Of a DNA stretch of 27,608 nt, positions 10,921 to 23,300 are shown in pieces (position 1 is the first letter of the stretch; the number at the start of each line of letters is the position of its first letter). The notes beneath the pieces are model-generated. The model saw nothing but the letters and a program-made list of their open reading frames with translations, was not told the origin of the DNA and ran no database searches. The DNA comes from a virus: positions 1-27,608 of the IMG/VR virus record IMGVR_UViG_3300024520_000407; one strand, written 5' to 3'. The translations under genes and the position numbers were made by a program.

Positions 10921-11404
10921 TCCAGTTCAGGCTTGGCAACAAGGCACTAATGTAAGGACTGCAATGAAATGTGATGAAGTGACAACGTTTGCAGCTTTGT
11001 ATGCCATCACAAAAGACATGCTTGATTATCTGGAGATGAATAAAACTCTGAGAACGCAAGAAGAAATACAACATGCAGTATCAGTTTTGTTGAATGAATT
11101 TCCAGCGTATAAATTGGAGGAATGGAAAATAGTCATGGACAGATTCAAAGCTGGATATTATGGTAATATGTTTGAACGTCTAAAATTGCCAGAATTGAGA
11201 GATGCTTTTCTGAAATTTGCTGATGAGAGATCAATCATGATGGAGAATAATTACCATGAGACAAAAAAAATAGAACCAGAGCCATTATCAGATGAGCAAA
11301 GAATCATAATGAAGCAGATAGTGAAAGACCTTAAACTTCCAGAAGATGACACAGATTTCAGAGGTCGCTGGAAGCATATTCACCACCCAAACACAACAGA
11401 ATGA
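10898..11404 (+). CDS. Conserved Bacteroidetes-phage protein (DUF6633-like)
   Basis: Starting with TTG at 10898 gives 168 aa. It resembles a widespread protein of Bacteroidetes mobile elements and phages: KLVTLNPVQAWQQGTNVRTA at the N-terminus, LLNEFPAYKLEEWKIVMDRF and AGYYGNMFERLKLPELRDAF in the core, then an acidic tail. I recall it as DUF6633; function unknown, often near replication genes. The start is uncertain: ATG at 10964 drops the conserved N-terminus, while ATGs at 10853 and 10808 overlap the replication gene by 68 and 113 bases. The TTG retains the conserved KLVTL region with a 23-base overlap and is preferred. Confidence 0.65.
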   Translation: MNKLVTLNPVQAWQQGTNVRTAMKCDEVTTFAALYAITKDMLDYLEMNKTLRTQEEIQHAVSVLLNEFPAYKLEEWKIVMDRFKAGYYGNMFERLKLPELRDAFLKFADERSIMMENNYHETKKIEPEPLSDEQRIIMKQIVKDLKLPEDDTDFRGRWKHIHHPNTTE

Positions 11405-12060
11405 AAATCTTAGTAGCATGTGAAGAATCTCAAGCAGTCACAAAGTATCTGCGAAAATTAGGACATGAGGCATATAGCTGTGATTTGCTGTCATGTAGCG
11501 GAGGGCACCCAGAGTGGCACTTTCAAAAAGATGTGTTTAAGGTTATAGAAAAAGGATGGGAATTAATGATAGCGTTCCCTCCTTGCACACATCTCGCGTC
11601 AAGCGGAGCACGACACTTTGCAAAGAAGATTGAAGATGGGAGACAGCAGCAAGGAATTGATTTTTTCATGGAGCTAATAAACGCACCTATTCAAAGAATA
11701 GCAGTTGAAAATCCTATTGGTGTGATGTCCACAAAATATAGAAAACCAGATCAAATCATACAGCCTTGGATGTTTGGAGATAAAGCACAAAAATCAACTT
11801 GCTTATGGTTAAAAAACTTGCCAAAATTAACTCCAACAGATATTGTGGACAAAGGAGAATTTTTTGAGTTCATATCCAAAAAAGGAGAAAAGAAAAGAAT
11901 GCCTATGTGGTACTATAAAGCTCTGCAAACAGCTAAAACGCCAGAAGAAAGAAGCACACTAAGAAGTAAAACATTTGAAGGTATTGCTCATGCAATGGCA
12001 ACACAATGGACTACTGACACAAAACAATTAAATTTATTTAAACAAAACACAACACTATGA
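11401..12060 (+). CDS. C5-cytosine DNA methyltransferase-like protein
   Basis: A 219-aa protein with a PPC motif at residues 60-62 (in FPPCTHL, the catalytic Cys loop), ENP at 103-105 and an N-terminal VACEESQAVTKYLRKLGHEA segment that would hold the cofactor fold. These are motifs I, IV and VI of C5-cytosine methyltransferases in shortened form. At 219 aa it lacks a large target-recognition domain seen in most such enzymes, as do many phage-borne versions. It would methylate phage DNA to escape host restriction or mark replicated DNA. It starts in the ATGA overlap of the previous gene. Activity is not proven: a degenerate motif I is a caveat. Confidence 0.7.
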   Translation: MKILVACEESQAVTKYLRKLGHEAYSCDLLSCSGGHPEWHFQKDVFKVIEKGWELMIAFPPCTHLASSGARHFAKKIEDGRQQQGIDFFMELINAPIQRIAVENPIGVMSTKYRKPDQIIQPWMFGDKAQKSTCLWLKNLPKLTPTDIVDKGEFFEFISKKGEKKRMPMWYYKALQTAKTPEERSTLRSKTFEGIAHAMATQWTTDTKQLNLFKQNTTL

Positions 12061-12272
12061 ATAGAGAACAAAAAGAAATCCAGGAAGCAATACACAGAAT
12101 GAATATGATTATTGATGATGCAAATGTTGTATTAGATCATTTTAAAAGTGGAAAAGGCATCTCAGATCCAACGAAATGTGCTGACAATGTACACACACAT
12201 CTTTCAAATATTGAGATTGCAATTGACTTGAATGATAATGAATGTTTAACATGGAAAAAATTTACAAAATGA
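12057..12272 (+). CDS. Small protein of unknown function
   Basis: A 71-aa protein with helical, polar sequence (EAIHRMNMIIDDANVVLDHF) and a His/Cys-containing middle (KCADNVHTHLSNIE), which is too sparse to claim a metal site. It overlaps the methyltransferase by ATGA. No family recognised. Confidence 0.5.
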   Translation: MNREQKEIQEAIHRMNMIIDDANVVLDHFKSGKGISDPTKCADNVHTHLSNIEIAIDLNDNECLTWKKFTK

Positions 12273-12427
12273 GATATTTAATCAGTGTTCCATTTTATTC
12301 AGACAATTTGAAAGAGGTTAATGAAGCAATGGATAAGATAGCAGAATCAATTGAAGTACCATATGTATCAGTTAGCGTTGAAAATGATAAAGGAAAGAGA
12401 ACATTTATAAATGAAAAAGAATATTAA
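12269..12427 (+). CDS. Very small protein
   Basis: A 52-aa frame from the ATG in the ATGA overlap with the preceding gene. RYLISVPFYSDNLKEVNEAM and the following VPYVSVSVENDKGKRTFINE look like a beta-alpha-beta fragment of a compact domain. Upstream in-frame ATGs (12242, 12251) would put the protein on top of the previous gene. Function unknown. Confidence 0.45.
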   Translation: MRYLISVPFYSDNLKEVNEAMDKIAESIEVPYVSVSVENDKGKRTFINEKEY

Positions 12428-12428
12428 A

Positions 12429-12899
12429 ATGAAACTCAAACTAATAAGAACCAACAGCAGCGCAAATTCAACAAATGGATTGCTGTATGACATTACATCA
12501 GATCCAGAATTTATGTGCTACACTCTTGAAGATGAACCAAGAGAAGTGAAAGTAAAACATGAGACATGCATTCCAGCTGGTGAATACACTCTTGGATTGA
12601 AAACTCATGGAAGGTTGCATGACAAATACCAATACAGATTTGCAGACATTCACAATGGTATGATTGAGCTTTTAGATGTGCCAAACTTTACAGATATTTT
12701 GATTCACTGTGGCAATACAGACAATCATACTTCCGGATGTTTATTGGTTGGAGATACACAAGAGAACAACAACACAAAAGAATCAGGTTTTATAGGCAAG
12801 AGCACAATTGCTTATTTTAGGATCTACAAAGCCATATCTGAAGCAATAATGTCTGGAGAGCACTGCACAATTAATATCACAGATGATGTTATAATATGA
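12429..12899 (+). CDS. DUF5675-family protein, L,D-transpeptidase-like motif
   Basis: A 156-aa protein. The start at 12429 gives the usual MKLKLIRTN beginning of the family; an ATG at 12411 overlaps the previous gene by 17 bases. The core has YTLEDEPRE near 31, PAGEY near 49 and a HCGN...SGC pair (His93, Ser102-Gly103-Cys104) followed by LLVGD. His plus a downstream [S/T]xGC is the catalytic arrangement of YkuD-like L,D-transpeptidases, and I remember DUF5675 members with this pattern. That suggests peptidoglycan modification, perhaps in lysis, but no signal peptide is present and the biochemical role is unproven. Confidence 0.65.
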   Translation: MKLKLIRTNSSANSTNGLLYDITSDPEFMCYTLEDEPREVKVKHETCIPAGEYTLGLKTHGRLHDKYQYRFADIHNGMIELLDVPNFTDILIHCGNTDNHTSGCLLVGDTQENNNTKESGFIGKSTIAYFRIYKAISEAIMSGEHCTINITDDVII

Positions 12900-13309
12900 G
12901 TGAAAGAAGTAAAGCAAAAAATGCTTGTGACAAAGCATTCAGCAGATTTGTGAGGTTGTCATGTGCTGATAAGTATGGTATGATAAATTGTATTACTTGT
13001 GATAAGCGTAAAAAATGGGATGAAGTTGATTGCGGTCATTTCCAAACCAGAGCAAAATTATCTGTGAGATGGTTATATGATCCAGAAAACGGATTAATCA
13101 ACGCTTCTGCTCAGTGTAAACGATGCAATATGAGTAATGGAGGCCATTCTTATCAGTTCGGCAAGAAGATAGATGCTCTGTACGGCTCAGGACAAGCCGA
13201 TAAAGTCGTTTTCATGTCTAATCAGATACGCAAGTACACAGTGCAAGAGTTAAGGGATATGGCGGCCTCATTTGAAGCGAGAGCAAAAGCCATATTACAA
13301 GAAATTTAG
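12896..13309 (+). CDS. NinG-type recombination protein (HNH-like, zinc-binding)
   Basis: A 137-aa protein starting in an ATGA overlap. It has Cys32/Cys35 (CITC), Cys46-Gly-His48 within DCGHFQTRA, and CKRC at 74-77, followed by a charged C-terminal helix region. This order of Cys and His is that of the lambda NinG (Rap) family, which binds and cleaves branched recombination intermediates; a zinc ion is expected. A role in homologous recombination or resolution of replication junctions is likely. NinG genes are usually late-early genes near replication functions, as here. Confidence 0.75.
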   Translation: MSERSKAKNACDKAFSRFVRLSCADKYGMINCITCDKRKKWDEVDCGHFQTRAKLSVRWLYDPENGLINASAQCKRCNMSNGGHSYQFGKKIDALYGSGQADKVVFMSNQIRKYTVQELRDMAASFEARAKAILQEI

Positions 13310-13328
13310 GAGACAAATATTGTTTTCT

Positions 13329-13336
13329 TATATTTG
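13329..13336 (+). promoter_or_regulatory. Possible -7 promoter box before the sigma-like gene
   Basis: A perfect TATATTTG lies in the 32-base gap before the GTG at 13342, the largest gap in this stretch of tightly packed genes. No TTG element lies 17-23 bases upstream, so this is a half-match. If it is used, transcription would begin at about the GTG and translation might start downstream, for example at the ATG at 13387. Confidence 0.3.
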
Positions 13337-13341
13337 GGGTT

Positions 13342-13872
13342 GTGGTCAGGAACTACATATCCAAAAATTACGATGCTATTAAAAAAATGGCATGTACTAT
13401 TGCCAAAAAAAGTCTGATTGATTGTGAGGAATTATGTCACATTGTGATATTGAGTATTTTAGAAAGCGATCAGAGTAAAATTGAGGAACTGATCAAGAAG
13501 AAGCAGTTGAGATATTGGTTGGCAAGGATGATGATGAATCAATATAACTCAACCACATCACCATATCACTACACATACAGAAAACCAGCTGAAAGACACA
13601 GAGAAGCGAAGCAAGATATTCTGCTGTGGTTTGATTCTGATATTGAAAAGAAGATAAAAGATGAAGAAAAGATTGACTTCATCAATTCTACTCTTTCAGA
13701 GATGCCATATTTTGATAAGACAGTAACAGAGATATATTATGAGCATGGCCATTCATTCAAAACTATGTCAGAGGATACTGGCATCAGTAAAACAACTCTT
13801 TTCAAAGCATTAAAACGCACAAAAAATGAAATCAAAAAAAAAGCCAAGCAAAGGACTTGGAGACACGATTGA
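13342..13872 (+). CDS. Sigma-70-like / helix-turn-helix transcription regulator
   Basis: A 176-aa protein. Residues 10-45 (SKNYDAIKKMACTIAKK, then LIDCEELCHIVILSILE) match the first helices of ECF-like sigma factors; residues 130-165 (VTEIYYEHGHSFKTMSE, then DTGISKTTLFKALKRTKNEI) are a sigma4-type helix-turn-helix. It is preceded by DIEKKIKDEEKIDFINSTLS. It therefore may redirect host RNA polymerase to late promoters, as seen with sigma-like proteins in other Bacteroidetes phages. Sigma region 2.3 is poorly conserved, so a non-sigma activator is also possible. The GTG start is preferred since it keeps the helix NYDAIKK; the alternative is ATG 13387. Confidence 0.65.
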   Translation: MVRNYISKNYDAIKKMACTIAKKSLIDCEELCHIVILSILESDQSKIEELIKKKQLRYWLARMMMNQYNSTTSPYHYTYRKPAERHREAKQDILLWFDSDIEKKIKDEEKIDFINSTLSEMPYFDKTVTEIYYEHGHSFKTMSEDTGISKTTLFKALKRTKNEIKKKAKQRTWRHD

Positions 13873-14197
13873 AAAAGTAACAAAATTCACTGGCTTGAAA
13901 GCTGCTGTGGAATCCATCTTTGGAGAGGATTGTGGATGTGAAGAAAGGAAAGAGAAATTGAACAAACTTTTTCCATATGGAGCACATATGAGTGCAGAGG
14001 ATCGTGATCTATATCACCAACATTTGATTAATTGGAAGAAGGGTGGTTCAGTGACTGCTTCACAGCAACATCTTGCCATTGATATTTGGATCAGAAGCAC
14101 AAACAAGAAAAAGAAGTTTTCCAACTGCACATCGTGTGTAAAGAAATTCTTTGAGGATATTGAAAAACTATATGAAAACAGCTGTGAAAATGACTAA
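13826..14197 (+). CDS. Conserved Bacteroidetes-phage small protein
   Basis: A 123-aa protein beginning inside the end of the preceding gene (47-base overlap in another frame). The N-terminal pattern KPSKGLGDTIEKVTKFTGLK, followed by FGEDCGCEERKEKLNKLFP, recurs in Bacteroidetes phages as I recall. It has several cysteines (DCGC, CTSCVKK), which may bind zinc. Basic at the start. Function unknown. The long overlap is unusual but the recalled family start supports this ATG. Confidence 0.65.
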   Translation: MKSKKKPSKGLGDTIEKVTKFTGLKAAVESIFGEDCGCEERKEKLNKLFPYGAHMSAEDRDLYHQHLINWKKGGSVTASQQHLAIDIWIRSTNKKKKFSNCTSCVKKFFEDIEKLYENSCEND

Positions 14198-14756
14198 ACC
14201 TATCAATAAAATATTTGCACATCCAAAAAATCCTCGATTGATTCGCAATGAAAAATATCTGGAGCAAAAAAAGAGCATAGAAGAAACACCTGAGATGATG
14301 GATCTGAGGCCAGTGATAATTGATGAAGATGATATCATACTTGGAGGACATCAAAGATGGAGAGCATGTAAGGAATTAGGTTGGAAAGATGTGCCAGTGA
14401 TGCAATACACCAGAGAGAAACATTTGAAATCTGAATCATTTACTAAATTCAACAAAACATATGAGCTGGTTTGTGCTGAAATAGTAATCAAGGACAATAC
14501 ACACTATGGAGAATTTGATTATGATATGCTTGCAAATGAATGGGATGAATACCCATTATTAGAATATGGTGTGCCAGTCTGGGAAACTGACATGCAAGAG
14601 CCAAATTTTAATGAACTGACTGAAGAAAATAATAAACCTCCAACAGTTAAAATAACATTTTCAAATGAAAGTGATTTGTTAGAAGCAGAACATGAAATAT
14701 CAAATATAGTAAGTAAATATGAAAAAGCATTTTACTCAGTATCATCTGAAAAATGA
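14190..14756 (+). CDS. ParB/Srx-like nuclease-domain protein
   Basis: A 188-aa protein. The N-terminal 90 residues are a ParB N-terminal domain: PINKIFAHPKNPRLIRN with the conserved N-P-R, LRPVIIDEDDIILGG near 39, then GGHQRWRACKELG (residues 52-64) and WKDVPVM. The GGHQRWRA signature is that of the phage ParB-like proteins paired with DNA modification enzymes, a variant of the GERRxR/GGNxRxxA nucleotide-binding loop. The C-terminal half has no recognised domain. The role is unproven: CTPase or nuclease activity, or targeting of the neighbouring Mom-like protein. The ATG at 14190 is chosen for its short overlap; starts at 14172 or 14151 are possible. Confidence 0.75.
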   Translation: MTKPINKIFAHPKNPRLIRNEKYLEQKKSIEETPEMMDLRPVIIDEDDIILGGHQRWRACKELGWKDVPVMQYTREKHLKSESFTKFNKTYELVCAEIVIKDNTHYGEFDYDMLANEWDEYPLLEYGVPVWETDMQEPNFNELTEENNKPPTVKITFSNESDLLEAEHEISNIVSKYEKAFYSVSSEK

Positions 14757-15337
14757 GATTAGAAAAAGCATCATATAAAGCAATTAAATATGCTTGTTTA
14801 AAATTTCACTATGCAAAAACTGTTCCAGTGAGAAATATATCATATTCTGTATTTAACAAAAACAATGAATGGTGTGGAGTTATATGCTATGGGTTGGGTG
14901 CTTGTGCTAACTTAGGTAAAAAATACAATGCTGTCTCTGGCCAATTTTTAGAATTAACCAGAATGGCTTTAAATGGAAAACAAGAAAGTACAAGCAAAGC
15001 AATGTCAATTTCTATTAAACTTTTGAAAAAGCACAAACCCTTAGTAAAAGTATTAATAAGCTATGCTGACAAAGGTCAAAATCACTTTGGAACAATATAT
15101 CAAGCAACAAATTGGCTGTTTGTAGAAGAAAGCAAAAGCAGTGGAAAAGAATGTTTCTACAAAGGAAAATGGGTGCATGATAGAGGGCCAAGTTCTTTGC
15201 CAAAAGAACAGAGAGAAAAATTGCTATACAGAAAAAAATCAGGTAAATACAAATATATTTTTCCTTTGACAAAAGAGCTTAAAAGAGATTGCCAACAATT
15301 ATCAAAACCATATCCAAAAAAAGAACTACTTAATTGA
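14753..15337 (+). CDS. Mom-like DNA adenine-modification protein
   Basis: A 194-aa protein starting in an ATGA overlap. It matches phage Mu Mom in outline: ISYSVFNKNNEWCGVICYGL near 29, FLELTRMALN near 65, a long amphipathic region (SKAMSISIKLLKKHKPLVKV), then SYADKGQNHFGTIYQATNWL near 108-127. These are the GNAT-like core motifs of Mom, which modifies adenine in phage DNA to block host restriction enzymes. The C-terminus is basic (GPSSLPKEQREKLLYRKKSG), probably DNA-contacting. With the ParB-like gene upstream and the C5-methyltransferase-like gene at 11.4 kb it makes a DNA modification set. Its stop is shared with the tRNA on the other strand. Confidence 0.75.
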   Translation: MRLEKASYKAIKYACLKFHYAKTVPVRNISYSVFNKNNEWCGVICYGLGACANLGKKYNAVSGQFLELTRMALNGKQESTSKAMSISIKLLKKHKPLVKVLISYADKGQNHFGTIYQATNWLFVEESKSSGKECFYKGKWVHDRGPSSLPKEQREKLLYRKKSGKYKYIFPLTKELKRDCQQLSKPYPKKELLN

Positions 15338-15406
15338 GCGATGAGGTCGATTTGAACGCCATCTCTTGACTGGAAGCCAAGTGTGTTACCATTACACTAT
15401 CATCGC
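15337..15406 (-). tRNA. tRNA-Gly (anticodon UCC), minus strand
   Basis: On the minus strand 15406-15337 folds as a 70-nt tRNA. The acceptor GCGATGA pairs perfectly with TCATCGC (7 bp). The D-arm is GTGT-AATGGTA-ACAC. The anticodon stem is CTTGG/TCAAG, with loop CTTCCAG giving anticodon TCC (UCC), which reads GGA glycine codons. The T-loop is TTCAAAT. The T-stem (TGGCG/CGACC) is imperfect, with two mismatches or a bulge, and the variable region is about two bases shorter than in typical bacterial tRNA-Gly. The sequence matches known bacterial tRNA-Gly(UCC) in order and has a U discriminator, with CCA not encoded (next bases CAA). It is opposite to all other genes and overlaps the Mom-like stop by one base. 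Confidence 0.8.
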
Positions 15407-15435
15407 ATATATGAGAGCAATATACACCAAGAAAA

Positions 15436-15783
15436 ATGAATAAAACAGAAATAAAAAAGAAAGCTATGATGGAAGCTCTTGAAAAATCACTTGGTGTAGT
15501 CACTCAAGCATGTAGGATTGCAAGTGTATCCAGAACGCAATACTATCAATGGTTAAAAGATGATCAAGTATTCAAGAAGCAAACAGATGATATTGCAGAG
15601 ATAGCAATTGACTTTGCAGAGAGTAAACTTCATTCTCTTATCAGTCAAGAGAACGTGCCAAGCACAATATTCTATCTCAAGACAAAAGGAAAGAAACGTG
15701 GATATGTAGAATCTCAAGAAATGACTATCTCAGAACCAAACAAAAAGCCAAGCTGGATTACAAGCGAGGATGAAGCAGAGTAA
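15436..15783 (+). CDS. Terminase small subunit
   Basis: A 115-aa protein. LEKSLGVVTQACRIASVSRT followed by QYYQWLKDD (residues 15-43) is the helix-turn-helix of terminase small subunits that recognises the packaging site. The middle helix (AIDFAESKLHSLISQ) would form the oligomer ring, and the end KKPSWITSEDEAE is acidic. It is followed by the large subunit with a 14-base overlap. A 2-residue Pro/Trp patch near the end is typical of terminase partners in Bacteroidetes phages. Confidence 0.85.
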   Translation: MNKTEIKKKAMMEALEKSLGVVTQACRIASVSRTQYYQWLKDDQVFKKQTDDIAEIAIDFAESKLHSLISQENVPSTIFYLKTKGKKRGYVESQEMTISEPNKKPSWITSEDEAE

Positions 15784-16924
15784 ATCATATTATGACTGTA
15801 AGAACTGTGATACTCGTATCCAAGTACATCAAGGAGGAACGAGATCGGGCAAGACGTATTCAATATGTCAGGCATTGATTGAGTGGTGTGTGAACAATAA
15901 GAACTCTGGATGGGTAATTACGATCATAAGAAAGACCATGCCGAGCTTGAAAGCGAGTGTGATGAGAGATTTTTTTCAGATATTAGAGAATGAAGGATGG
16001 TATTCTCCTGCTCATCATAATAAAAGCAACTCACAATATATTTTGTTTGGTAATATGATTGAATTTGTTTCAATCGATATGCCCCAGCGCATCAGAGGTA
16101 GAAAAAGACACATAGCTTTTTTGAATGAGTGCAATGAATTAACCTTTGAAGATTTCACTCAGATAATTTTGAGAACGTCTGAAATAGTAATCATGGATTT
16201 TAACCCCAGCGATGTATTTTCATGGATATATGATAAAGTAATGACGAGAGATGATTGCAGTTTTTTCCAAACAACATATCTGGACAATCCATTCTTGGAA
16301 GAAAACACAATAAAAGAGATTGAATACCTAAAATTAACGGATGCAAATTATTGGAGAATTTATGGATTGGGTGAACGTGGTTTGAACATCGCTGCTATCT
16401 TTCCACATTTCAATCAAGTGGATGAGATACCAGATCGCGCACAATTTATTTCATTTGGTTTAGATTGGGGATTTACAAATGATCCAAGCGCACTCATATC
16501 AGTGTATAAAGATGGGTTGGATCTATATGCTCATGAACACTTGTATGAAACTGGATTGACAAATAATGATTTGATAAGAAAGATGCGAGAAATGGGAATT
16601 GATAGGCAAGAAATAATTGCCGATTCTGCTGAACCGAAATCTATAACTGAACTCTCACGACAAGGATTCTTAATCAAAGGTGCGAAGAAAGGTCAAGACA
16701 GCATCAGATTAGGAATAGACGTAATGAAACGACATAGAATAAATATAAGCAAAGAAAGCACTAATCTAATAAAAGAGATGCAGTCATATAAGTGGAAAAC
16801 AGACCGAGATGGCAACCAAATCAATGAACCAGAAAGCGGAAACGATCATGGAATTGATGCGCTGAGATATGTGTGTTTGAATAAGCTCATGGAAAACTAC
16901 TCTGGCAAATATTACATATCATAA
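15770..16924 (+). CDS. Terminase large subunit
   Basis: A 384-aa protein. The ATPase domain has Walker A GGTRSGKT (residues 22-29), an adenine-binding-type W-V-I-T-I-I-R-K stretch after it, Walker B IAFLNE (115-120) with catalytic Glu120, and the coupling motif near 134-150 (LRTSEIVIMDFNP). The nuclease domain has FGLDWGF near 228, IIADSAEPKS near 284 and NDHGIDALRY near 360, the acidic metal-binding residues of the RNase H-like fold. It packages phage DNA into the prohead with the small subunit. The size is slightly below the usual 400-550 aa. It belongs to the Terminase_3/PBSX type. Confidence 0.95.
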   Translation: MKQSKSYYDCKNCDTRIQVHQGGTRSGKTYSICQALIEWCVNNKNSGWVITIIRKTMPSLKASVMRDFFQILENEGWYSPAHHNKSNSQYILFGNMIEFVSIDMPQRIRGRKRHIAFLNECNELTFEDFTQIILRTSEIVIMDFNPSDVFSWIYDKVMTRDDCSFFQTTYLDNPFLEENTIKEIEYLKLTDANYWRIYGLGERGLNIAAIFPHFNQVDEIPDRAQFISFGLDWGFTNDPSALISVYKDGLDLYAHEHLYETGLTNNDLIRKMREMGIDRQEIIADSAEPKSITELSRQGFLIKGAKKGQDSIRLGIDVMKRHRINISKESTNLIKEMQSYKWKTDRDGNQINEPESGNDHGIDALRYVCLNKLMENYSGKYYIS

Positions 16925-17121
16925 TGAAATTAACAGTACCTTCAGATGAAGTTCTATGTAATGAATGCGAATCTTTTATAAAGCACTACGCTAAAGAGCA
17001 AGTGATTAAGGAGTTAAGTGATTGGGTTCAATTCACGAAATCAATCAAGCCATCTGTGCTAAGTATGATGAAAGATAGAATCAAAGAACTTAAACAGAAG
17101 AAAGTGAATGAACTCACCTAA
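16924..17121 (+). CDS. Small protein after the terminase
   Basis: A 65-aa protein starting inside the terminase stop (TAATG). It is a helical polar protein with CNECESFIKHYAKEQVIKEL and a basic end. The first 18 bases (ATGAAATTAACAGTACCT) differ by only one base from those of the gene at 17145, which is an unusual shared start region. Function unknown; position suggests a tail or packaging accessory. Confidence 0.5.
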   Translation: MKLTVPSDEVLCNECESFIKHYAKEQVIKELSDWVQFTKSIKPSVLSMMKDRIKELKQKKVNELT

Positions 17122-17144
17122 TAGCATAACTAAAAGTGAATAAA

Positions 17145-17675
17145 ATGAAAATAACAGTACCTACATCAGTTGCAGATATTACAGTAAAGAAATGGATTAA
17201 ACTTTCCAAGACAGATGATGTGGTTAAGCGAGTAGCAATCCTCTGTGACATAACACCTAAAACAGTCAAGAGAATGACTATTGAAAGCATGGAAACTGTG
17301 AACTCATTGCTGGAAGAATTAGAAGATCCAAGCCAGACTGAGTTTGAGTTGTTTCCAATCATAGAAATTAAAGGAGAAAAATATGGTATACATCCAAACC
17401 TCTCAGAGCTTACTGTTGGAGAGTATGCTGATCTGGAGACAGCATGCGAAGATTCGGATGAGAACTTGCTTCAGATACTCTCTATTCTGTACAGAAAGGT
17501 CACACACGAATCACAAGACTTCTATCAGATAGCTCCATACACTGGAAGCGAAAACAGAAAGATATTCAATGAGATGAAAATGGACAAAGTTTTCTCACTA
17601 CTCGCTTTTTTTTTGAATATAGGTCTGACCTTTATGAAAGATTCAGTGCGATCTTTGGAGGCGGTGGAGAGGTAG
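17145..17675 (+). CDS. Tail assembly chaperone, upstream product (gpG analog)
   Basis: The zero-frame product is 176 aa from the ATG at 17145; a GTG at 17136 would add three residues. It resembles the tail assembly chaperone proteins of Bacteroidetes phages: VKRVAILCDITPKTVKRM near 26, ESMETVNSLLEELED, FELFPIIEIKGEKYGIHPNL near 70, then LSILYRKVTHESQDFYQIAP. The last part, LLAFFLNIGLTFMKDSVRSL, matches the FFLxLG ending of these proteins. Frame 0 stops at 17673-17675, and a second frame (-1) is open from the T-run at 17606-17614. The protein would bind and prevent early polymerisation of tail tube subunits, helped by the tape measure. Confidence 0.7.
   Translation: MKITVPTSVADITVKKWIKLSKTDDVVKRVAILCDITPKTVKRMTIESMETVNSLLEELEDPSQTEFELFPIIEIKGEKYGIHPNLSELTVGEYADLETACEDSDENLLQILSILYRKVTHESQDFYQIAPYTGSENRKIFNEMKMDKVFSLLAFFLNIGLTFMKDSVRSLEAVER
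17606..17614 (+). promoter_or_regulatory. Slippery T9 sequence, probable -1 ribosomal frameshift site
   Basis: Nine T residues (17606-17614) followed by GAATAT contain T-TTT-TTT and T-TTT-TTG heptamers in the zero frame, the X-XXY-YYZ pattern where tRNAs can slip back by one base. The frame-0 product ends 61 bases later (stop at 17673). Slipping opens the -1 frame that continues to 17848 with no stop. Candidate downstream stimulators are the G-rich stretches between 17655 and 17710, but no stable pseudoknot was proven by eye. Confidence 0.6.
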
Positions 17676-17848
17676 GTTCTTCAATGGCAAATAAATGGGG
17701 TTGGTTCGCTTCAATCTATCATCTGGCGGGTGGGGACATATTAAAAATTGAGGCCGTTACAGAGCTTAAAATTGAACAAGCATTCACTTTTTTGTGTTAC
17801 GAATTAGACCTTTCTATATCTAAGAATAACAAAGACATAATCAAGTAA
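17606..17848 (+). CDS. -1 frame extension of the tail chaperone (gpGT analog)
   Basis: In the -1 frame the reading runs from the T-run to a stop at 17846-17848. Its C-terminal part, MANKWGWFASIYHLAGGDIL and then KIEAVTELKIEQAFTFLCYE, is a good match in style to the T domain that follows the chaperone in other Bacteroidetes phages (KWGWY...LAGGD, then an amphipathic helix). A lone ATG at 17684 would give a free 54-aa protein instead. Fusion by frameshift is more likely since the T domain normally needs to be fused, and the -1 frame is open from 17573, upstream of the slippery site. Two products in a fixed ratio are expected, as with lambda gpG and gpGT. Confidence 0.6.
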   Translation, partial: FFFEYRSDLYERFSAIFGGGGEVGSSMANKWGWFASIYHLAGGDILKIEAVTELKIEQAFTFLCYELDLSISKNNKDIIK

Positions 17849-17849
17849 G

Positions 17850-18326
17850 ATGGAAGCAAATCAATCAGAAACAACTCTATTCAAATTGTTGAAAGCATTT
17901 GATACATACGGAGCAGATAACGCACAAATTAACAGCACTGTAATTGGACCTATTGAAGAAATGGATGTAAAGAAAATGGATTCAACTCTTTTTCCTTGCT
18001 TATTTGTTAATCCAAGTTCTGCGTCAATTGATAAAGGTGAAGCAGAAATTTCACTTGAAATAATTGTTGCAACATTGCAACCAAGTGATTTGGAAGATCG
18101 TGCTTATGTTTTGAGCAATATGTTCTACATAATGAAAGATATCATTGCAATGGGGTATAATCACGCATACGATGATGATCTTTTCATTACCAGATGCACA
18201 ATGGAATTACCAGTCAGTTTAGATCCCTTCATGGTCCGATTTGAAAATATGCTGATTGGATGGTCTGCAATGGCAAATTTCTCAGTAGATAATACAAATG
18301 ATGTTTGCTTAATACCAATGAAATGA
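17850..18326 (+). CDS. Putative tail terminator / tail completion protein
   Basis: A 158-aa protein starting one base after the chaperone stop. The pattern FPCLFVNPSSASIDKG near 48, EISLEIIVATLQPSDLEDRA near 66, then PFMVRFENMLIGWSAMANFS near 127 is that of the small alpha/beta proteins that cap the tail tube in Bacteroidetes phages. The N-terminus is polar and the C-terminus ends CLIPMK. The role is by fold-like pattern and position among tail genes. The next gene overlaps it by ATGA. Confidence 0.55.
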   Translation: MEANQSETTLFKLLKAFDTYGADNAQINSTVIGPIEEMDVKKMDSTLFPCLFVNPSSASIDKGEAEISLEIIVATLQPSDLEDRAYVLSNMFYIMKDIIAMGYNHAYDDDLFITRCTMELPVSLDPFMVRFENMLIGWSAMANFSVDNTNDVCLIPMK

Positions 18327-18892
18327 TCACAATGATGATTGACAATGTGAAGTACGATGCACCACTCACTACAAAGATAATGCATGATGTAGCAATGAGA
18401 TGGAAGAAGAATGCACTTCAGATGTTAAGGAGACAAGGACACAGAGCAACTGGAACACTGGCCAACTCAATGAAATTGGAATGGGAGTTGAATCAAGATA
18501 AAGATGAGTGGACAATTGAACTCACTCCGGATGTTGATTATTGGCAATATGTAGATTCTGGTGTTGATGGAGTAAACAAGAAATATAGTCGGGAGACTTT
18601 CAAATTCCTAAACACAGATACCAGAACATTCAGATTCACAAATAAGAAACCACCACTAAAAGCTATCATGGGATGGTTAAAAGTGAAAGGATATCAAGGA
18701 CGCAATGCTAAAGGACAATTCATAACAGATAGATCATTTGGATTCTTAGTACAGAGAGCAATATTTCAAAGAGGATTAAAACCATCATACTTCATATCTA
18801 AAACTGGTAATAACATACTGAAGAAATACTCAGATCCAATTGCTTCTGCTGTTGGTCAAGATGTTGCAAATATCATAACCAAGATATTGTAA
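18323..18892 (+). CDS. HK97 gp10-like head-tail or tail component
   Basis: A 189-aa protein from the ATG in the ATGA overlap (an in-frame ATG at 18305 lies further inside the previous gene). MRWKKNALQMLRRQGHRATG near 26, GTLANSMKLEWELNQDKDEW, then DYWQYVDSGVDGVNKKY near 75 resemble HK97 gp10-like tail completion proteins, which join the tail to the portal-neck complex. The WQYVDSG turn and the FGFLVQRAIFQRGLKPSYFI helix are typical features. The family name is from resemblance. Confidence 0.6.
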   Translation: MITMMIDNVKYDAPLTTKIMHDVAMRWKKNALQMLRRQGHRATGTLANSMKLEWELNQDKDEWTIELTPDVDYWQYVDSGVDGVNKKYSRETFKFLNTDTRTFRFTNKKPPLKAIMGWLKVKGYQGRNAKGQFITDRSFGFLVQRAIFQRGLKPSYFISKTGNNILKKYSDPIASAVGQDVANIITKIL

Positions 18893-18921
18893 TAAAATAA
18901 CAGAACCGAACATATATAAAA

Positions 18922-20325
18922 ATGGCATACATCGTAGAACAACAACCATCTGAAACAGCTCTCACCAGCACACTACATCCAACTATCTTCACAGTCTCTG
19001 ATGTGGGATATAGTGGATATAAATACAGATTCGCATTAAAGGTGAAAGATGATGCTGGAACAATCTTGACAGTATTAGCATTGCAACCAAATAATAATGA
19101 AGCAGCCACATTCAATATCGCTCAGGTATTAGATAGCTATGTAAAGACAACTGAGATACAAATTCCACTCACTGATTCCAGTCATTCAATTCATCTGTTA
19201 GGTGCTAAGGTATTAACTCAGGTGTGTGCAAAGGGAGCTTTCACAGCAAGAAAATTTCTTGTAGATCTTGGATACATTAAGGCAACCACAGCTTCAGGAG
19301 CAGTATCATATACAGCAGCAGATACTGATAACAAAGTATTTGCATTAAGATGGTCTGGTCATACATCAGACTTTGCAGATTGGAGTGATGTTAAGTTGAA
19401 TGGAGATCTGATATCTGCGTTCTCAGATAATGCTCCATCATATAATACTTCTATGCTAAGTGAAATTCCTTTGAGTGGAACTGCAACATGGCCATCAGGA
19501 TTGAATGCTTTATCAAGTCTATTCAAAGACAATGTGACTATGACATCATTCAGAACATTAGCAACACCAACTGGAACTGCTACTGGATATGATCTGGATC
19601 GTAATCTAAATTACTATAAAATTAGAGTAATGAATGGAGCATCTGAAGTTGGTATTTATGACATAAACATTGCAACCTCTGGTGGAGTGGCATCTGGTTC
19701 AGTTGGATCAGATAGCATGATATCATTTGTAGGAGTTGGCCCGATGAACTTAAAATCACAAACTGCAAATGCAAGTCTTGCCACAGCGATCAACGGCACT
19801 TGGACTTATTATGATGTGGTTGCATATACAACCAGTGGCTTATCAACAGCATATCAACTGTCTGGAATATACAGATACACACAAGTTGATGCACCTTGCT
19901 TATATGATGCATTCACAATTGGATTTCAAAACAGAGCTGGAGCATATGACTACATTGATGTATTAGGAGCACAAACCAACAGCACCAAAGTAACAAGCAA
20001 ATCAAAGTATGTAGGCAAGTCGGGAAACTATCTTGATACGAGTACATCAGTTGATTGGGCATCGTATGGAAGGAATGGAGGCACTACATTCAGAGATGTA
20101 AGATCTAAGAGAGGCATGAAAGTATCAACTGGCTGGTATGATGAAAGCAGAGATGTATTGATGGAATCATTGATAGTATCACGTAAGGTTGTTATGATAA
20201 ATAGTAAAGGAGACATAATACCGATTGTTATTAAGGACACAAACTATCTGGAAAAAACGAGCTTGAAAAATAAGCTATTCGCGTATGATCTGAATATTGA
20301 ATATGCAAAAGAAAGAATATCATGA
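18922..20325 (+). CDS. Large tail structural protein (baseplate/distal tail candidate)
   Basis: A 467-aa protein. It is Ser, Thr, Gly and Ala-rich with short beta-like segments throughout (LHPTIFTVSDVGYSGYKYRF, YDLDRNLNYYKIRVMNG) and a C-terminus (LMESLIVSRKVVMINSKG, then DIIPIVIKDTNYLEK) resembling the ends of tail proteins in related phages. The protein is encoded directly upstream of the 1017-aa gene with an ATGA overlap, so both should form the tail tip. No catalytic motif is visible. Function is inferred from context, composition and the resemblance to Bacteroidetes-phage tail proteins. Confidence 0.55.
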   Translation: MAYIVEQQPSETALTSTLHPTIFTVSDVGYSGYKYRFALKVKDDAGTILTVLALQPNNNEAATFNIAQVLDSYVKTTEIQIPLTDSSHSIHLLGAKVLTQVCAKGAFTARKFLVDLGYIKATTASGAVSYTAADTDNKVFALRWSGHTSDFADWSDVKLNGDLISAFSDNAPSYNTSMLSEIPLSGTATWPSGLNALSSLFKDNVTMTSFRTLATPTGTATGYDLDRNLNYYKIRVMNGASEVGIYDINIATSGGVASGSVGSDSMISFVGVGPMNLKSQTANASLATAINGTWTYYDVVAYTTSGLSTAYQLSGIYRYTQVDAPCLYDAFTIGFQNRAGAYDYIDVLGAQTNSTKVTSKSKYVGKSGNYLDTSTSVDWASYGRNGGTTFRDVRSKRGMKVSTGWYDESRDVLMESLIVSRKVVMINSKGDIIPIVIKDTNYLEKTSLKNKLFAYDLNIEYAKERIS

Positions 20326-23300
20326 TTGAGCTTCAAGTAAGAAATGGAGATCTTTATGATTGGTTTCCTTTGGAACTTTCTGAGGATGCTGCTATACCTT
20401 TAACATATAGCTTTGCAGATCCAGAGAAGTTGATGAGCAGAGAAGCACCCTATTCAGGAACTTTTCTACTACCATTCTCAAACATAAACAATGATTTCTT
20501 TGAGAACTATTTTATGATAGACCTATCACAAGGATCATGGAGCACCGATATTTTCAAGCCAGAGAATCCAGTTCAATGCACTCTGTTGAATGATGGTGTT
20601 GCTTTGATAGAAGGAGTATTGCAATTATTAAGCGTATCTAAAACTGGACAAACGTATGAATGTGCTATCAGTGGAGGTGCAGGTGATCTATTCACTCAGA
20701 TGGGCAATACTAAGCTGAGAGAAGTATTTGCAAATCCAACAGATTACCAGTATGATAATACATCAGCAAATGTCATTGCTTCATGGACAACTGATATAAC
20801 AGATGGTAATGTTGGATCTGGTGTGCTTCGTATTCCATTAGTAGATAAGGCACTCAGTCAAGGAGGGCGGTTGTATGGTGATTTCGGAGTTGATGAAGGT
20901 GTATTCACTTCAAACTATTTACCAGCTACTCACCTCCTACCTTTCATGCAGATAGAACATATCTTCAGAAAGATACTATTTCACTTTGGCTTCTCACTTT
21001 CGAGTACTTTTATGGCAACTTCAATCTGGGCAAATTTGTACATGAGTTTAGGCAATGGAGCTAATGGATTGAAAACAACTCCATACTATGGATTCAAAGC
21101 TGGATTGACATCAGATATCACAGCTGGATCTGGTGGTGAAACTTTTGTGCTACCATTCAACACTACTTCTGGATCGGATCTATATGATCCAGACAATCAC
21201 TTTGACGAAACATCATATTCTTTTATTGTGCCAAGTGATATGTGGGCAGTGTTTGATTTCTCATTTGAAGTAGATAATTCATCACAAGCAGACTTCTGGG
21301 GAATTTTCAATGTTGAATTAAACTCATCTGATACAGTTCTTGCAAGTTTCGGATGGTCAATGGTGCAAGGAAGTCCAATAACACAACCATTCTCATATAC
21401 AATGCCACAATCGGTATTCTTGGAATATGGAATGGAGATTCAACTTACAATCACAACATATATGGAAGGTTGTGTAATTATAGCAGATCCAACAACAACA
21501 TTCTTCAGATGGTTATCATATGAGAGCACACCGATAAGTGGTGAGCCAGTTGATACGATTGCTAATATGCCAGATATCACATGCGCTGCATTTGTGAAAG
21601 ACTTAGTACAGAGATACAATCTTACTCTATTACCATCTACAAGTCCACAAGAACTCATATTAGAGCCATTAAGCGACTATATTGCATCGGGTGATGTATT
21701 GGATTGGTCTGAGAAATTAGATCACTCACAACCGTTTGTTGTAAAACCAGCCACAGAACTCAGAAGCAAAGATATCATATTCAATGACGGAGTAGATAAG
21801 GACTGGCCGAATCAATATCAGTTCACAGAATATGGAACTCCATTAGGTCAATACGGATACAGATCAGATGATACATATGCAGTTGGAACACATCAGAACA
21901 GCTCAGTATTTGGAGCAACAGCAATTCAACAGCTACCAACAGCAGATTGGAACTCAGTTGATGCAAACACGATAATATATCCACGTTTGTTTGGAGAAAG
22001 CAATGGCGCTCAAATACCAGTAGCACACAAACCAAAGATATTGTACTGGAATGGAACACAAACTACTGGAGGTCAAAGTATATACATAGGAACTACATCA
22101 ACAGCGGTTTATGGATGTATGACACCATTTCACACGCTACCAATAACAGATTCAACACAATCAACATATTGGAGGCATACATTAAAACAAGCATCTGGAT
22201 CACCTTTGATTGGTCAAAATTATGCACTTGGATTGGCCAGATCTTATTGGAGTGAATATCTACAACAGATATATTCAGAGGATGCAAGACTTGTGTTATG
22301 CCAGATAGCTATCACTCCAGCAGATATGAATCTCTTGACATTTGATGATAGGATTTTCATAGATGGAATATATTATAGAGTGATTGAGATAAGTGGATAC
22401 AATCCAGTTGATCCAAAACCAACACCAGTGAGGTTGATGAAATTGATAGATATCGGAGCTGTGACTTTGTTTCCTGATGATCAGTGTGTTTTGAATTATG
22501 TATCTTCAAACATAGATGGTACTACAAATTGGGTTGATGCTTCTGGAGTGGCTCAGAATCCAACTCTTGCATGTTGCGAAGCAGAAGGATTAACATATGC
22601 ACTTGATGGTACTACACCTGAATGTTGGTGGGATTGGCATTCAGATGGACATGATCCAGATATAACAGATGCACATCTACACGATGGAAAAAAAGATATA
22701 GGTTCAGGTGTTTCAGGAATACCAACGAGATCATTCTTTCCACAAGTACCAATTCCAGTTGGATCACAACAAGGAACACATCTACTCAGACAAAGCTCCA
22801 AGAATTTCAATATGGCTTGGTCACAGAATGGAACAGCAGCATATGTGAATAATACACTGAATGAAGGCATGGCATCTTCTATGGTCTTTCAATTGATGTG
22901 TGTTACAAATAGCACCACTGCTGTTGTGGCTGGAGTAGAAGGAAAATTGATAAGTGACATCATAATACCTATCAATTCAACAGCTCACTTTAAGATCAAT
23001 GCTCTGGGAGTGATATATGCAGCAGCAACATTACCAATAGGAGGTACATACTTCGTATCTCAATCCATTGTGCTCAAAAATATCAATGGAGTAATATCTA
23101 CAATTTCAGATACAGTGGTTGAGAGCAATCGAGATTCTGGATTGGCTGATCCAACTGTTTCAATAGCTCATGTGAGTGCATCAAAAAGAGATTACGTGCT
23201 GGATATTTCAGTAACGGGAGAAGATGATGTGAATACATCTTGGGTAATGGATGTGAATGTTACATATATGAATATGAGCAGCAGTTCATCAATCGTGAAT

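Follow-up and report, generated by a model that had tools for sequence, protein, structure and literature searches.

A tRNA-Gly accompanies Mom and its ParB-like partner at an exchangeable DNA-modification locus of phages and is a candidate glycine donor for adenine modification

The Mom enzyme of phage Mu yields N6-carbamoylmethyladenine, a glycinamide whose composition is that of adenine plus C2H3NO, i.e. the atoms of one glycyl residue. To our knowledge, the question of the donor used in this step has stood for decades, and we know of no proof for any candidate. The adjacency of a ParB-like gene and mom is, as such, not new, as it is already annotated in Enterococcus phage phiEf11, Microbacterium phage Appa and a Lactobacillus plasmid prophage. 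The first-pass annotation of the DNA studied here could attribute the pair to no described system; no paper treating ParB-Mom as a system was found, in a search that left subscription journals and bioRxiv mostly outside. Literature on Mom with glycyl-tRNA, or on tRNA-dependent DNA modification, was likewise not found (subscription journals and preprints mostly outside the search), and the Mom donor may already have been published.

We analysed a window of 27,608 nucleotides, by which we mean the whole stretch of DNA considered, for which megablast of positions 11000-23000 against phage records returned no match. This window is a linear IMG/VR record that may be incomplete, and its initial description as a lytic-looking 28-kb phage is thus not established. 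Evidence from Pfam, PHROG, PDB profiles and a structure model identified the 194-aa product of the ORF at 14753..15337 (plus strand) as Mom, a GNAT-fold adenine-modifying enzyme. Residues 4-189 of the 194 match Pfam PF25680 (1.9e-35, 122.8 bits for a cut-off of 27.1), the ORF matches phrog_1384 (8.9e-46), the family profile matches phage Mu Mom, PDB 8bv8 (1.1e-59), and the model superimposes on the same structure (Foldseek 3.5e-12; structure alignment Z 19.7). Residues S81 and D106 align with S124 and D149 of Mu Mom, S124A being described as an inactive mutant in the PDB title of 8bv8. On these comparisons the second ORF of the pair is a true Mom, as its motifs had first suggested, and its placement by homology favours this family over an unrelated GNAT family. 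Among the matches listed, the Foldseek/VIA neighbours of the model are CoA-dependent GNATs; aminoacyl-tRNA transferases do not appear among these listed neighbours, which excludes nothing, and the usual CoA P-loop motif is absent near its expected helix in the Mom sequences examined, which is weak evidence. The window Mom would modify adenine in phage DNA and thereby protect it from restriction.

The preceding gene (14190..14756, plus strand) encodes a protein of 188 aa counted from its ATG, in which GGHQRWRACKELG is found, and is assigned to the ParB/Srx fold. The Pfam ParB_N match is slightly below the cut-off (1.9e-5), PHROG ParB families are matched at 1e-14 or better, ParB structures are matched by profile at 2.6e-13, and the best Foldseek matches of its AF2 model (pLDDT 88) are CTP-type ParB/Noc structures (2e-5). 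A conserved N-domain of NTP-binding type (residues ~1-125) precedes an enzyme-specific C-terminal tail (~131-188), the model showing a weak linker over residues 131-150; the fold of this N-domain and its retained nucleotide-binding motifs (NPR, GGHQR at nt 14343-14357, and N103) indicate membership of the ParB/Srx superfamily. Identity as a partition ParB (ParABS) was rejected, since the Pfam scan of the 188-aa protein returned ParB_N and one sub-threshold match only, with no HTH for parS and no C-terminal dimer domain, and since no ParA-like product was noticed by inspection among the window ORFs read. A coupling of modification to replication, as first suggested, or to partition is not supported, on the same grounds. 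In other lineages, Mom-linked ParBs end with a single CPxCG (L001:4490-5011, L086:3517-4023, L115:4420-4995), a tail that perhaps forms a zinc-bridged dimer, and a tandem pair of overlapping ParB-like genes was observed at L177:3058-4199.

The two ORFs overlap by the ATGA that ends the ParB-like gene (14756) and starts mom (14753). Across window-type Mom loci from IMG/VR, window included, ParB lies directly 5' of mom in 81/81 cases, with a 4-base ATGA-type overlap in 73 of the 81, and a set of 51 bacterial-genome loci shows the pair again in Bacteroidota, Bacillota and Enterobacterales. The Mom partner in Acidobacteriota-type loci is a divergent ParB-like gene with the end CPECG, and the order is reversed in Chloroflexi-type genomes, Mom then ParB; the existence of two gene orders points to a functional link rather than to inherited order. 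Both the overlap read in the first-pass annotation and the conservation of the pair across phages, which it had proposed as a check, are thus confirmed. A chance pairing peculiar to the window was rejected on the 81/81 adjacency, and it is very unlikely that the ParB-like partner is a chance neighbour of Mom.

A two- or three-part DNA modification set, including a C5-methyltransferase-like gene, had been envisaged; Mom with its ParB-like partner is what remains of it. The ORF with PPC and ENP motifs does exist at 11401-12060 and matches the phrog_757 'DNA methyltransferase' family (3.7e-66; no Pfam methyltransferase match), but ParB and Mom lie 3' of such a gene in only 1 of 54 informative phrog_757 loci (3.6 kb downstream available), and it was rejected as a third part of the cassette. 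Elsewhere, 424-aa Mom-domain ORFs were observed closely 3' of phrog_757 methyltransferase-like genes (L270:2320-3594, L271:4144-5418). The cassette of the window is flanked shortly 5' by a sigma-factor-like gene (13342-13872; phrog_1740, 1.2e-8) and directly 3' by the terminase small and large subunit genes (15436-16924).

The third part of the cassette, overlooked by the first reading, is a tRNA-Gly(UCC) encoded on the minus strand at 15336..15406 (ARAGORN; Rfam tRNA 51.6 bits); its T-stem contains a bulged A, and its 3' end shares 2 nt with the mom stop codon. The tRNA scores 88.2 bits with R1, a covariance model built from 26 mom-linked tRNA-Gly, which match by construction, most matches lying outside them. 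Our locus survey revealed, in many loci, a tRNA-Gly close to or at the 3' end of mom, on one strand or the other, other tRNA species being nearly absent; R1 matches 81/81 window-type Mom loci, in which the tRNA lies where mom ends or slightly past it, in either orientation, and about a third of the tRNAs (32/95 loci) lie on the minus strand. A ParB-seeded search of viral contigs, metagenomic contigs whose loci were picked by similarity to these ParBs, provided a comparison with other enzymes: among the matches listed, R1 detected the tRNA in 26/26 Mom or Mom2 loci whose 3' side is complete (a 27th Mom locus, L190, cut by the contig end, was left out) vs 0/51 other-enzyme loci, and the Fisher value of 4e-21 for this association, among the matches listed, is computed on loci that are not independent. 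Likewise, R1 matches one of 80 phrog_757 control loci, the sole one with ParB and Mom. Searching in reverse with a T-arm pattern recovered 40 tRNAs, of which 39 have Mom within 1.5 kb and the last lies 253 nt from a contig end (an earlier tRNA-wide DNA pattern, too strict, had produced zero matches).

Matches of R1 extend to Acidobacteriota, Chloroflexi (in the order tRNA-Mom-ParB, the tRNA being 5' of mom), Bacteroidota and Clostridium, and to two actinophages, Arthrobacter phage BarretLemon and Microbacterium phage Appa. With Mom clustered at 70% identity, 33 of 58 clusters carry the tRNA, in every member of each. The R1 search detected no mom-linked tRNA near mom in Mu, phiEf11, Paenibacillus, Yersinia or Listeria, nor, with filters off, in nine Bacteroidota/Clostridia-type loci (L089, L092, L095, L096, L097, L099-L102); ParB was not detected in L102, the other eight of these related loci being ParB-Mom. 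No tRNA was found anywhere in Mu, the Lactobacillus prophage, Staphylococcus Alsa_2, Listeria LP-026 or Salmonella VSiP, phiEf11 holds a tRNA-Asn match only, and the tRNAs present in LP-124 and Vibrio F100 are distant from mom. Taken together, there is a strong link of tRNA-Gly to Mom and not to the other ParB-coupled enzymes.

The window tRNA displays the full tRNA-Gly identity set (cloverleaf, G1-C72, C2-G71, G3-C70, U73 and C35-C36). In the alignment of 26 mom-linked tRNAs, 98.1% of cells are paired vs 72% when shuffled, with 149 compensatory cells vs 42 shuffled; these are real RNAs whose stems are kept by compensatory changes. The elements GCG...CGC-U73 occur in 92 of 93 distinct mom-linked sequences and C35-C36 is invariant in the 26 aligned, suggesting that the signals for glycyl-tRNA synthetase are retained. 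By contrast with a standard translating tRNA, the five-pair T-stem of the window tRNA is broken by the bulged A, a trait shared by 26/26 aligned tRNAs and 88/97 by script, kept around an altered T-loop in seven further mom-linked tRNAs (by eye), predicted unprompted by RNAfold, and lacking in the two actinophage tRNAs. This bulge was used as the discriminator because R1 alone does not separate mom-linked from ordinary tRNA-Gly, host genes also scoring ~60 bits: control loci around host or other phage tRNAs contained 13 tRNA-Gly with an unbroken T-stem, and their only bulged tRNA-Gly (L320, L321) are both Mom-linked. Several mom-linked tRNAs are further marked by ACC or odd-sized anticodon loops, and four were seen by eye to keep the bulged A without a standard TTC T-loop (L057:4542-4614, L061:1379-1452, L068:1407-1480, L154:5098-5171). 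EF-Tu binds tRNA at the T-stem; with the stem bulged at this binding site, these tRNAs look chargeable with glycine yet translation-avoiding, and the bulged tRNA-Gly is probably poor in translation.

Besides Mom, the ParB N-domain was found to precede with a short overlap, among the matches listed, the Mom2 type, a TAGT glycosyltransferase, an ABC-GNAT, an FkbM-type methyltransferase and a C5-methyltransferase, and it is fused to an N6/N4 methyltransferase in some loci; six or more kinds of modifying enzyme are fused or coupled to it. This domain can be up to 100% identical before different enzymes, and the N-terminal part of phrog_498, a family of ParB-methyltransferase fusions, matches the Mom-linked ParBs. 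Among the matches listed, N-domain similarity averages 0.64 for different-enzyme pairs and 0.61 for same-enzyme pairs, whereas tail similarity is 0.58 within an enzyme class vs 0.21 between classes. On short trees of the same listed matches, enzyme class is distributed almost randomly over the N-domain (41 changes; shuffled mean 45) and in an orderly manner over the tail (8 changes; shuffled mean 31). The exchange is visible in the DNA itself: a Mom locus (L147) and a TAGT locus (L162) share 94% identity as far as roughly codon 115 of ParB, have no match over tail, enzyme and tRNA, and resume 91% identity right after the L147 tRNA, and further locus pairs from different metagenomes break in the same manner. 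Over 2,695 different-enzyme pairs among the matches listed, the DNA breaks at a median of 64 codons past GGxxR, the weak linker of the AF2 model directly following this boundary; between the window and its relatives, DNA similarity begins within ParB and continues through Mom. The exchanged unit in otherwise alike phages is thus the ParB tail plus the enzyme, plus the tRNA where the enzyme is Mom, and the window cassette represents the conserved three-part Mom allele of an exchangeable modification locus. From this association and domain shuffling, the ParB-like protein is most likely an NTP-binding adaptor common to several enzymes. The ParB-seeded loci also include ABC-ATPase and GNAT domains in one ParB-coupled chain (L148:4522-5577, L169, L171, L182, L199, L203, L207), a candidate new acyl-type DNA modifier, as well as scanned ParB-coupled 3' genes without Pfam match (L166:4578-5375, L191:4681-5469, L185:707-1723) and a likewise coupled homologue of the L166 gene (L194:4575-5372), which are candidates for modification enzymes of new kinds.

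That a tRNA-Gly travels with Mom suggests that the Mom donor is a glycine-loaded tRNA, and we consider it probable that the locus is a horizontally exchanged cassette of three parts, a ParB-like adaptor, Mom and a dedicated tRNA-Gly feeding Mom. The host synthetase would charge the tRNA, which, with its bulge (and the aberrant T-loops or anticodon loops of relatives), would constitute a private glycine pool little used by translation. Mom would transfer the glycyl group from this tRNA onto N6 of adenines in phage DNA; in the resulting N6-glycyladenine, the glycyl amine would attack C6 via a five-membered ring, a rearrangement yielding N6-carbamoylmethyladenine, the Mu product having the very atoms of adenine and a glycyl residue. 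The ParB N-domain would load on, or recognise, phage DNA and bring Mom to it, the tail fitting one enzyme type, and a swap of tail and enzyme (with the tRNA) would change the DNA chemistry. The association of Mom and tRNA is strongly evidenced, and the donor role is well motivated by it: most likely, glycyl-tRNA is the donor, and the product would arise by rearrangement, two steps that we infer. The main gap of this proposal is the many Mom genes without a nearby tRNA, Mu included, which would draw on host glycyl-tRNA; the CoA-dependent GNATs listed as structural neighbours of the model and the unbulged T-stems of the two actinophage tRNAs also speak against it. We incline, with some reserve, to the wider generalisation that Moms are glycyl-tRNA-dependent, that many phages supply a private tRNA-Gly shy of translation, and that the ParB N-domain is a universal socket for exchangeable anti-restriction enzymes.

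Other readings of the tRNA deserve consideration. Since tRNA genes often serve phages as integration sites, and since in many loci this one marks the right border of the exchanged segment, it could be no more than a boundary or recombination site (att-like or a homology joint) delimiting a mobile cassette, with Mom using another donor such as glycyl-CoA. We regard this as distinctly unlikely: cassettes with other enzymes swap at the same place without a tRNA, the tRNA is encoded on either strand and, in Chloroflexi, 5' of mom, it is always a tRNA-Gly with stems kept by compensatory changes, and none of the host tRNAs sampled showed its T-stem bulge. The window anticodon UCC reads GGA, the most frequent of the window's glycine codons (238/417), which argues against a private pool and would suit a tRNA supplementing the translation of GGA codons in phage genes. 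This reading appears very improbable given that the tRNA is absent from near-identical backbones with another enzyme, that no other tRNA species accompanies it, and that relatives display ACC or odd-sized anticodon loops, altered T-loops and the T-stem bulge.

The ParB-like protein is likewise amenable to other interpretations, among which a nuclease or nickase acting against unmarked DNA, as in a restriction-modification-like pair, is unlikely, though less so than the readings of the tRNA above. Nicking-nuclease activity has been reported for some ParB-domain proteins, one of them fused to an adenine methylase (PMC5512222), but the conserved residues here are the ParB nucleotide-binding motifs, and the same N-domain accompanying six or more kinds of modifying enzyme is explained at least equally well by common targeting. 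The overlap of parB with the mom start, where com is found in Mu, recalls instead a Com-like regulator of mom expression, with the tRNA as a regulatory element of the mom mRNA. Such regulation seems the least probable of all, as the minus-strand tRNA of 32/95 loci lies outside the mom message, and as many unrelated enzymes have ParB in front of them and, in Chloroflexi, ParB comes after mom.

Under the preferred reading of a glycyl-tRNA donor, the tRNA-Gly travelling with mom offers a specific and directly testable answer to the Mom donor question; if true, DNA would join the known acceptors of aminoacyl-tRNA, with the first aminoacyl-tRNA donor for a DNA base modification. A swappable ParB and enzyme locus would also explain how phages change their DNA chemistry by one recombination and, as it lies immediately ahead of the terminase genes in these phages, would give a predictable genome position at which new modification enzymes can be sought.

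Compared with described systems, the window Mom shares with phage Mu Mom (8bv8, PF25680) its family, fold and the residues aligned with S124 and D149, whereas Mu has Com, no ParB and no nearby tRNA in place of the ParB and tRNA-Gly of the window. The ParB N-domain belongs to the subfamily of the ParB-methyltransferase fusions (phrog_498; Bce_0392 type), from which the window differs by a separate, translationally coupled ParB whose tail is particular to the Mom type. As in the window, the ParB gene of Enterococcus phage phiEf11 overlaps mom, but this phage lacks a mom-linked tRNA and its ParB ends in a CPxCG tail. Closest in content are gp46-gp48 of Microbacterium phage Appa, with adjacent ParB, Mom-like protein and tRNA-Gly; unlike that of the window, the Appa tRNA-Gly(CCC) has an ordinary T-stem and was probably acquired independently. 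In staphylococci, a non-proteogenic tRNA-Gly feeds the Fem cell-wall transferases, so that, by function, a tRNA-Gly withheld from translation supplies a transferase of GNAT-like fold; the Fem acceptor is peptidoglycan and not DNA, and the likeness to the cassette proposed here is one of way of working.
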